DNA of 64,000 bases from Xanthomarina arctica (GTDB lineage: Bacteria > Bacteroidota > Bacteroidia > Flavobacteriales > Flavobacteriaceae): positions 943,142 to 1,007,141 of the forward strand of contig NZ_BMFQ01000001.1 in NCBI RefSeq assembly GCF_014638915.1, given 5' to 3'. This document shows, piece by piece, positions 8,638 to 55,335 of the stretch; the stretch's first letter is position 1; each line of letters opens with the position of its first letter. A model generated the notes under the pieces. The model searched no databases, had not been told where the DNA came from, and saw only the letters and a program-made list of their open reading frames with translations. The translations under genes were made by a program, and so were the position numbers.

Positions 8638-8651
8638 TATCATGTAGAGCG

Positions 8652-8690
8652 TGGTCACTGAGCGTAGTCGAAGTGAAAGCGAAGAATCTC
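8652..8690. repeat. Dispersed GAGCGTAGTCGAAGTG repeat, copy 1
   Basis: The core ACTGAGCGTAGTCGAAGTG (about 8656-8674) followed by GAAGAATCTC occurs here, and in related form at 22483-22520, 31434-31462, 45011-45070 and 55289-55335. It is intergenic and lies just after sdhB. Confidence 0.75.
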
Positions 8691-22482: not shown

Positions 22483-22520
22483 TGTCACACTGAGCTTGTC
22501 GAAGTGCGACTTGAAGAATC
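22483..22520. repeat. Dispersed GTCGAAGTG repeat, copy 2
   Basis: TGTCACACTGAGCTTGTCGA continues into AGTGCGACTTGAAGAATC. It is a diverged member of the same intergenic family as 8652-8690. Confidence 0.7.
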
Positions 22521-31433: not shown

Positions 31434-31462
31434 TGTCATTCTGGGCGAAAGCGAAGAATCTC
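31434..31462. repeat. Dispersed GAAGAATCTC repeat, copy 3
   Basis: TGTCATTCTGGGCGAAAGCG followed by AAGAATCTC lies just beyond the ahcY stop. It is a shortened relative of the other copies. Confidence 0.6.
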
Positions 31463-42897: not shown

Positions 42898-45800
42898 TTA
42901 ACCTACAATGTTCACAATCTTGCCAGGAACAATAATGACTTTTTTAGGCGTTCTACCTTGTAATTGTTCTTGAGTTTTCTCGTGAGCCATAACGGTTGCT
43001 TCAATATCTTCTTTGCTCATATCCATTGGTAATTCTAAAGTAAAACGCATTTTACCATTGAAAGAAATTGGATAATTTTTAGAACTTTCTACCAAATGAC
43101 TTGCATCAAATATTGGAAACTCTGCAGTTGAAATGGATTCGTTATGTCCTAATTTATTATATAATTCTTCAGCAATATGTGGCGCATAAGGTGATAACAA
43201 AACTAATAAAGGTTCTAAAACTTGTTTGCTAGTACATTTTTGAGCCGTTAGCTCGTTTACTGCAATCATAAAGGTTGAAACAGAGGTGTTGAAAGAGAAA
43301 TTCTCAATATCTTCTTCTACTTTTTTAATAGTTTTATGAAGTGTTTTTAGATTGTCTTTTGTTGGTTCGGTATCATTAACATTAAGTCCGTTTTCCCCAA
43401 CATACAATTTCCATAATTTCTTAAGAAAACCATGTACACCTGTAATACCTGCTGTATTCCATGGTTTGTATTGTTCTAATGGTCCAAGAAACATTTCATA
43501 AAGTCTTAAACTATCTGCTCCATATTGTTCACAAATACTGTCAGGATTCACGACATTATATTTGGATTTAGACATTTTTTCAACTTCGCGACCTACTTTA
43601 TAAACATCATTGTCACCTTCAATAATTTCACCTTTTTCTCCTATAAAAATAGCACTTTTGTAGTCTTCTCCAAATTCACCATCTTTCTTTAATCCTTCTA
43701 TATCTAATTCGTCTGAAGCATTAACGTATTGTACTTTTACATGAATAGGTAATGGAACAATCATTAAGTTTTCTAATGCATCAGCATCCTGCAAACCAGC
43801 TATTTTTGCAAGCTTAACTTTAAGCTCTTTTAAATACAGTTTATTAGATTTCAAATCCCCTTTACTACTAAATTCGGAATGAGAGATATAAATATTTTCT
43901 AATTTTTTTAATAATTTGGCATTAGTTTTTTCTTCTTCTTTAGGATTAGCAAACATATAGCTAAGTCTGTAAGCAAAAGCACTTGTTCCCAAAATCATTC
44001 CTTGGTTTATCAGCTTTTTAAAAGGTTCTTCGATACCAACGAAACCTCTGTCTTTCATGAATTTTACCCAAAAGCGAGAATAGAGTAGGTGTCCTGTTGC
44101 ATGTTCGCTACCACCAATATATAAATCGACATTTTCCCAGTATTTAAGAGCCTCTTCACTTGCGAAATCTAAGTTGTTTTGCGCGTCCATATATCTAAAG
44201 AAATACCAAGAACTTCCTGCCCAACCTGGCATGGTGTTTAATTCAAGAGGAAATACAGTTTCATTATCAATTAACTGATTACTGACCACTGAACACTGTT
44301 TAGTGTCCCAAGCCCAAACATCTGCACGACCTAAAGGTGGCTCGCCAGTTTCGGTTGGTAAATATTTTTCTACTCCTGGCAAACGAATTGGTAAATGTGC
44401 TTTATCAATCATTTGTGGCATGCCATTAACGTAATAAACAGGGAAGGGTTCTCCCCAATATCGTTGTCTAGAAAATACGGCATCACGTAATCTGTAATTG
44501 GTTTTGCCTTCGCCTTGACCTAGTTTTTCTAACTCGTAAATAGCCAGCTTAGACGCTTTTTTATAGTTCAAGCCACTAAGGAAATCACTATTTGCAATCA
44601 CGACATTATCTTTTGAGGCGTAAGCTTCTTCAGTGATATCTACCCCTTCAAAAATGTTAGGAATAGGAATACTAAAATGTTTTGCAAAATCGTAATCACG
44701 TTGGTCTCCACAAGGTACAGACATAACCGCTCCTGTTCCATACCCAGCTAATACGTAATCACCTATCCAAATTGGAATAGGCTCTTTGCTAAAAGGATGT
44801 TCTGCATAGGCACCAGTAAATGCGCCAGAAATGGTTTTTACATCTGCCATTCTATCGCGTTCGCTACGTTTTGAAGTCGCTAAGATGTAAGCTTCCACTT
44901 CAGCTTTCTGTTCATCAGTAACAATTTGTGATACAAGTTCGTGTTCTGGAGCTAATGTCATAAAGGAAACCCCGAAAATGGTATCAGGTCTTGTTGTGAA
45001 AACTTCGATCTGGTGATTGAGCGTAGTCGAAATCACATCATGCTCACTTCGACTACGCTCAGCGACCACATTAGGAAGAACATTAAAAGTTACAGAAGCT
45101 CCAACCGATTTTCCAATCCAGTTTTTCTGACTTTCTTTTAAGGAATCGTTCCAATCTATCGAATCTAAGCCTTGAAGCAATCTTTCAGCATAAGCCGAAA
45201 TTCGCATAGACCATTGGGTCATTTTTTTTCTTATTACTGAATGACCTCCACGTTCTGAAACGCCGTTAATTATTTCGTCGTTCGCCAAAACGGTTCCTAA
45301 AGCAGGACACCAGTTTACTTCGGTTTCAGCTAAATAGGTTAATCTATATTGTAAAAGAATTTCTTGTTGTTTTTTAGAGGAAAAATTATTCCAATCTTCA
45401 GCTGTAAAAGGATCGATGTTATCATCGCAAACAGCATTCACGTTGGCATTTCCTTCTAAAGTAAATATGTTTATTAAAGTTGAAATCTCTTCGGCTTTAT
45501 TACTATCATTATTATACCAAGATTCAAATAACTGGATAAATATCCATTGGGTCCATTTATAATAACTTGGATCAGACGTTCTAACTTCGCGCGACCAATC
45601 GAAAGAAAATCCAATTTGATCTAACTGACGTCTGTACGTTTTAATATTTTCTTCAGTTGTCAACGCAGGATGTTGTCCAGTTTGAATCGCATACTGTTCT
45701 GCAGGCAATCCAAAACTATCATAACCTTGAGGATGCAAGACATTAAAACCTTTATGACGTTTGTACCGAGAATAAATATCACTAGCAATATAACCTAGCG

Positions 45801-55288: not shown

Positions 55289-55335
55289 CACTTCGACTCA
55301 CTTCGACTTCGCTCAGTGGCCGACGCTCAGTGACC
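55289..55335. repeat. Dispersed TTCGACT/GCTCAGTG repeat, copy 5
   Basis: CACTTCGACT occurs twice, followed by CGCTCAGTG and GACGCTCAGTGACC. It is an inverted-orientation, partly duplicated member of the family at 8652-8690, between greA and HIT. Confidence 0.75.

Follow-up and report, generated by a model that had tools for sequence, protein, structure and literature searches.

How does a short palindromic repeat come to lie within the reading frame of an aminoacyl-tRNA synthetase, and what becomes of it there? This question is raised by leuS of Xanthomarina arctica, which lies in the 64 000-nucleotide stretch of DNA analyzed here as a whole (the window). A first-pass annotation had described part of this gene as a dispersed palindrome that had been inserted once and exapted into the enzyme. 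In our view, it is likely that a head-to-head doublet of REP-like repeats is merely tolerated in a loop of LeuRS, and that this slot has been refilled repeatedly by palindromic mobile DNA in Bacteroidota.

An in-frame hairpin doublet in leuS

The 14-base perfect inverted arms given in the annotation were located within leuS (Table 1), and the segment containing them does match a repeat elsewhere in the window, since positions 45044-45069 and 8651-8676 are 96% identical in inverted orientation. Both units of the doublet are among the 45 copies that were used to build the covariance model. The segment translates as VVAERSRSEHDVISTTL and, as had been noted, is read through in frame without a stop; two of the six frames of the doublet are stop-free.

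Table 1. Features of leuS and copies of the hairpin repeat, in positions of the window
Feature	Position	Strand	Basis or remark
leuS, leucyl-tRNA synthetase, 1018 aa	42898-45954	-	Pfam LeuRS editing, class I synthetase and anticodon-binding domains
Site 1: LPNVVAERSRSEHDVISTTL codons, beta-hairpin loop of LeuRS editing domain	45019-45078	-	Alignments and model
Site 2: second recurrent loop, around VVSNQLIDNETVF, no insert in window	44251-44289	-	Coordinates from residue numbers
Hairpin repeat unit B, variable stem around GAGCGNAGTCGA core	45011-45037	+	Covariance model, 32.2 bits, E = 4.2e-7
Hairpin repeat unit A, head to head with B and in inverted orientation	45042-45068	-	Covariance model, 28.5 bits
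Perfect inverted arms, 14 bases (45018-45031 and 45048-45061), 16-base spacer	45018-45061
Repeat copy outside long open frames	8652-8678	+	Covariance model, 31.2 bits
Repeat copy ahead of first ATG, 177-codon open stretch	55296-55322	-	Covariance model, 29.3 bits

An insertion of 20 codons had been proposed; the insertion was confirmed, but its size was not. The interval from NWIGxSxG to VFTTRPDT comprises 32 residues in the window LeuRS and 15 in the short form, a net gain of 17 residues. The insert lies a few residues ahead of VFTTRPDT, as had been stated, but it is not a linker before the CP1 editing domain, since residues ~292-311 fall inside the editing domain itself (PF13603, residues 277-472). 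As the AlphaFold model of full-length LeuRS was too poor (mean pLDDT 50), we modelled the editing-domain fragment instead (62 sequences, mean pLDDT 81); its best fold matches were LeuRS structures, with 1OBH at the top. Strands end before the insert and start after it, and pLDDT is below 50 over most of the insert, so that the model predicts a flexible beta-hairpin loop at this position.

Dispersal and structure of the repeat

Four matches to the core with at most two mismatches were found in the window, compared with 0.18 expected, and none of 100 shuffled sequences reached this number. In the 3.9-Mb genome, the core TGAGCGWAGTCGAA occurs in 20 exact copies and in 35 with at most one mismatch, whereas the reversed pattern occurs in none. 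Weaker matches to the hairpin model are also present in the window at 22484-22509 (+, 22.1 bits) and 31435-31461 (+, 16.6 bits).

Ten of the 30 core copies examined (out of the 35) lie well inside open frames of at least 250 codons: four in an alpha-2-macroglobulin-like frame of 1945 codons, two in leuS, one each in ValRS-like, GlnRS and diphosphomevalonate decarboxylase frames, and one in a frame that may have its true start at a more downstream position. The GlnRS was identified by its match to a solved GlnRS and the decarboxylase by Pfam, and the remaining host names were assigned by reading. The copy in GlnRS lies just past the portion that can be aligned to E. coli GlnRS, and a MetRS-like frame has an additional core copy close to its C-terminal end. 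At both the ValRS and the MetRS positions, the core was absent from all six congeners compared (G003 left out), and the MetRS copy amounts to a clean insertion of 24 nt. Three of the six congeners (L143, L144 and L148) also have a long insert, around EQSDVVISSNKEIAT, elsewhere in MetRS, and the four cores of the alpha-2-macroglobulin-like frame (L156) represent a hairpin repeat at three places.

We analyzed covariation using a search pattern in which most stem positions on either side were unconstrained, which gave 126 matches in seven of eight genomes. Among the 82 distinct copies, 96.3% of cells were paired, and double changes in the stem numbered 145, compared with 45.6 in shuffles (0 of 500 as high). 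The covariation score was 0.599, compared with 0.204 (sd 0.015) in shuffles, and pairing fell to 28-45% when partners were slid by one to three bases. The evidence comes from four free pairs, the outermost pair being fixed by the pattern (at most one mismatch) and two inner pairs being near-invariant. In the window subfamily, a 5-bp outer stem, beginning with T in most copies, encloses the inner GAGCGNAGTCGA, which can be read from its letters as G.A steps plus a GNA triloop. GNA loops give unusually stable DNA hairpins. Under standard folding, single units were no better than shuffles. Model matches at E ≤ 0.1 number at least 17-56 in each of the eight genus genomes; scoring was confined to 150 of the 211-354 candidates per genome, so that these are minimum counts. 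No Rfam family exceeded its gathering score, and the sole match up to E = 1 was mir-237 (17.5 bits, gathering score 80).

Site 1 across Flavobacteriaceae

Of the eight genus genomes compared at site 1, two show the plain short form, and a third is also short but differs in sequence. The filled forms are the ERSRS doublet of the window, CHAELVEAS (two genomes), ASGTKQS plus HSEQSEES (one) and VTLSADEGS (one). Two congeners thus have the plain short form, and others have different repeats at the same place, which bears out the insertion of a dispersed repeat; the single event implied by the first-pass annotation gives way to a recurrent place of insertion. Among 88 LeuRS (the eight genus genomes and 80 named Flavobacteriaceae loci, the best 80 of 587 relatives), 51 are short (44 plain and 7 with NSEF), 29 carry hairpin-repeat types and 8 carry other sequences. 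The nine hairpin types (R1-R9) were labelled by eye, and 27 of these 29 were also matches to the covariance model (L072 and L110 were not). A different kind of replacement was seen in L033, L085, L095, L100, L108, L121 and L127, where site 1 reads QNSEF, its DNA consisting of AGAATTC-like short repeats, with the length unchanged.

On the LeuRS tree (837 columns with variable regions excluded; 80 rows counted, the 8 'other' sequences left out), at least 21 changes between filled and short and at least 33 changes of type were required; such counts refer to allele states switching along the gene tree and are no proof of separate insertions. The sister sequences L101 and L113 of Cellulophaga illustrate one such change: 28 nt with a hairpin in the filled L101 stand against 16 nt in the short L113, the replacement is bounded by identical AATGT and CAAATAGA, and the 90-base flanks are 95% and 90% identical.

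We also scanned the 88 leuS loci (753 kb) with the covariance model and obtained 60 matches at E ≤ 1 (≥15 bits), of which 32 were at site 1 (27 loci, 5.2 kb), 11 at site 2 (11 loci; 7.0 kb over the 81 loci measured), 3 in the rest of leuS and 14 in the flanks (494 kb). In the 64 loci whose genomes contributed no rows to the model, the corresponding numbers were 9 (3.5 kb), 7 (5.0 kb), 1 and 5 (380 kb). Raising the threshold to ≥25 bits left 23, 6, 3 and 4 matches over the full set of loci and 4, 4, 1 and 2 in the subset of 64.

On the reading that we prefer, a pair of short REP-like hairpin repeats would have entered the editing-domain loop in frame and would persist as a flexible segment that the enzyme tolerates, without having been recruited for a function. 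Selection would presumably remove damaging insertions and leave those in loops, and movement may involve a hairpin of single-stranded DNA or the replacement of a short patch. In flavobacteria, filled and clean short alleles occur side by side in close relatives, so that the question of a hot spot can be tested there.

A second loop and the age of the fillings

A different history is possible, although we would not call it probable: the slots may have been filled in the distant past, on one or a few occasions, with filled and empty alleles subsequently spread between species by short-tract recombination and their type altered by conversion or compensatory change. The junctions at site 1 are very uniform between species, including the right-hand one, as such a history would predict, and the same-site swaps of RPE-4, RPE-6 and RPE-7 in Rickettsia are mainly read in this manner, as exchange of alleles or conversion of a resident repeat, in the available text of the report on them (PMC3767692). 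Site 2 points in the same direction. It was judged by reading to be filled in 14 of the 88 LeuRS (L034, L035, L065, L066, L071, L073, L089, L096, L105, L112, L125, L129, L132 and L141), 11 of which were model matches. The motif G[IV][YF] stands beside the repeat in 14/14 filled alleles and in 0/74 others, the latter including two (L076 and L092) with another kind of insert, and filling and motif went together in 6/6 independent pairs on well-supported branches (P = 0.03). Several other Bacteroidia have GY at this position, so that filled alleles there may represent an older class. The linkage points to old allele classes or exchange at this site. Filling of site 1 and filling of site 2 showed no significant association over 13 independent pairs.

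At site 1, however, the short forms are canonical and are interspersed on the gene tree, which argues against a few old fillings. Flank identity in 48 same-type pairs showed no excess and no sign of imported tracts, although very short tracts could escape such a comparison, and the flanks of L101 are nearer to those of its empty sister L113 than to those of the four other carriers of the TTGC-stem type compared. Against the reading that we prefer, leuS is the only location of this type, at up to one mismatch, in four of the six genomes searched that have it in leuS; for those four, a recent transfer from another place in the genome is therefore unsupported.

DUF559 domains in the same loops

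Outside Flavobacteriaceae, the two loops hold larger inserts. The LeuRS fragment was matched in 75 of 80 genomes of the class, and at least 10 of these 75 LeuRS contain an in-frame DUF559 domain (PF04480); with three from a second search, 13 such LeuRS were found in other Bacteroidia. According to Pfam, the domain is at site 1 in L268, L321, L322, L323, L324, L378 and L397, and at site 2 in L287, L288, L377, L379, L391 and L405. The two loops would accordingly serve as slots for small hairpins in Flavobacteriaceae and for DUF559 cassettes in other families, and since they are filled by differing repeats and by endonuclease-like domains, they look like parking places for mobile DNA. In L380 (778-1098, G080), a DUF559 match directly precedes the LeuRS editing domain in a separate frame of 235 codons, and thus this gene may be split or the assembly faulty.

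DUF559 was also found by Pfam in other enzymes, namely in MetH at the same place in L326, from the genus of the window, and L352, from another family, and at a second place in L392 and L395 (L394, L396 and L416 by reading alone); in RecG at one place in L338, L342 and L399 and at another in L404; in acetyl-CoA synthetase (Acs) at one place in L401, L402 and L411; and in RecJ (L403 and L406), SpoIIE-type proteins (L400 and L412), MutS (L408), a CoA transferase (L417) and type I restriction enzymes (L393 and L410). Across families, the inserts in a given housekeeping enzyme often share a position. At E ≤ 1e-15, DUF559 occurs in 59 of 119 genomes of the class.

We constructed a tree of 75 DUF559 domains (hosts from 26 genomes plus long-frame matches in genomes of the class), in which the 31 labelled housekeeping inserts, from LeuRS, MetH, RecG, Acs, RecJ, MutS and SpoIIE-type proteins, together with L417, L420 and L421 formed one clade (support 98/90). 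When 22 of the best-scoring short-frame domains were added (97 domains), the same 34 rows again formed one clade (99/93), and 0 of 53 stand-alone rows fell inside it, although with few columns (119). The domains of restriction enzymes are placed elsewhere in the tree; in L407, L409, L413, L414, L415, L393, L410 and L418, DUF559 lies in long frames of restriction-modification-like appearance outside this clade. Within the clade, the RecJ inserts group by host and the RecG inserts mostly so, whereas the three Acs inserts, all at one site, require three changes forced by starred branches, and hence some sites were reached more than once. In a literature search by title and abstract that covered few subscription journals, we found no report of recurrent insertion in LeuRS or of embedded DUF559, and, to the extent of that search, the embedded class and the loops that it shares in LeuRS appear to be new.

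The presence of DUF559 in the same two loops of 13 LeuRS, and its single embedded clade, would also fit a homing-like process, in which the endonuclease of this clade cuts empty alleles and so drives the filling of the slots, the small palindromes being non-autonomous relatives of it or scars that it left. The solved chain nearest to the cassette is 3HRL, an endonuclease-like protein, and inverted palindromes were found at the ends of some cassettes (23/25 bases in L323 and 20/22 in L352, values that carry no shuffle control), with little found at the ends of the others in an ungapped search. Moreover, site 1 of the flavobacterial L106 resembles an internally deleted cassette. We nevertheless consider this process unlikely. 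The hairpin family of the window gave 7 matches in 23 DUF559 loci and never flanked the domain on both sides; we accordingly rejected DUF559 as its mover. The palindromes at the cassette ends differ from it in sequence type, and cutting is putative.

A broader proposal, which we put forward tentatively and with some doubt, is that the embedded clade represents a class of mobile elements of Bacteroidota inside the frames of essential enzymes, bounded by inverted palindromes and homing without splicing, with small palindromes, the window pair among them, occupying these loops as non-autonomous passengers. No intein or Hint (splicing) family was detected by Pfam (E ≤ 1e-3 or 1e-5) in 33 DUF559-bearing proteins, some of them partial (four sets of 7, 7, 10 and 9), and the occurrence of DUF559 in the same loops suggests a nuclease-bearing class that survives in essential proteins without splicing. 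If this were true, fixed loops of LeuRS, MetH, RecG, Acs, RecJ, MutS and others would be homes of DUF559 elements and would act as safe harbours at the level of the protein, the gene being one that its host cannot do without. It would bear on how enzymes acquire domains and on which parts of LeuRS can accommodate large insertions.

Relation to known elements

Repeated filling of a tolerant loop by palindromic DNA, the reading favored here, has partial precedents, and in-frame REP or RPE elements are a known kind. In the available text of PMC3767692, palindromic elements of Rickettsia are described in frame at solvent-exposed places of conserved genes, including tRNA synthetases, and a hot spot is weighed against one old insertion, the former being left open. 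The window repeat resembles them, as far as that text goes, in that short palindromes lie in frame in conserved genes and that orthologues can differ in the repeat type found at a given site; in LeuRS, MetRS and ValRS the in-frame repeat is absent in orthologues. The sequences and hosts differ, and all the Rickettsia orthologues described there are filled (PMC3767692), whereas 51 of the 88 LeuRS analyzed here are short.

The CGTC/TGTC-tagged REPs of Bacteroidetes are, according to the available text of PMC3733652, short hairpins that often form head-to-head dimers and lie in some cases within genes, including those of tRNA synthetases, with no dedicated transposase; a recurrent slot in LeuRS is not mentioned in that text. 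The window repeat likewise has a paired stem and dispersed copies, and most leuS types, which begin with TGTCA or CGTCA, resemble these tagged REPs (PMC3733652). The window units, however, begin with TGGTG and TGGTC, without the CGTC/TGTC (or CCTC) tag, and have the 5-bp outer stem in place of a stem of 8-9 bp beginning with AT; we therefore did not file this subfamily among the tagged REPs.

In-frame REPs inside a protein gene are also described for RAYT subclass 2.4, which is abundant in Bacteroidetes and Cyanobacteria; in the text available (PMC6006769), the host is the transposase itself, the REPs are GT[AG]G-tagged and they sit between motifs where harm may be small. An inverted pair of hairpins is shared with the REPIN/BIME arrangement, but a cognate RAYT flanked by the same repeat was not found in this genome. 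Its sole Y1 transposase match is a RAYT-like protein of 188 aa (L061, 1453-2180) flanked by a different palindrome, GGACAGCTCGCGAGCTGTCC, copies of which lie around the gene, with a related piece inside it. RAYT was accordingly rejected as the mover of the window hairpins, and neither this gene nor the DUF559 loci examined tied a transposase to them.

With respect to the cassettes, the ShiLan domain, as far as the available text of PMC11855218 goes, is a homing insertion with an endonuclease in a phage methylase that lacks splicing domains. The DUF559 cassettes are similarly endonuclease-bearing inserts in host genes without splicing domains, but the ShiLan nuclease is read out of frame (PMC11855218), whereas DUF559 is in frame and in several conserved bacterial enzymes.

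Function of the insert

The exaptation proposed by the first-pass annotation, in which the insert would act in editing, in stability or as an mRNA hairpin, is very improbable in our judgment. The insert is close to the conserved VFTTRPDT, and the coding strand can form a strong hairpin under DNA parameters (-17.7 kcal/mol for the doublet, z = -4.88), both of which could be taken as signs of function. Insert sequences nevertheless differ between species, more than half of the compared LeuRS have the short loop, and the insert is mostly disordered in the model; given this variation and modelled disorder, exaptation is not supported. Chance likeness of residues ancestral to LeuRS can be dismissed almost with certainty, since the window shuffles, the genome-wide copies against a control of zero and the short forms of congeners refute it, and the insert residues, which the annotation would have expected in LeuRS of distant families if the likeness were accidental, are absent from most congeners and from the distant LeuRS examined (a comparison excluding 15 of 65 class-level loci).

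Elsewhere in the same protein (P0001), residues ~660-790 occur in several quite different versions across the eight genus genomes, as if they had been swapped as a block.
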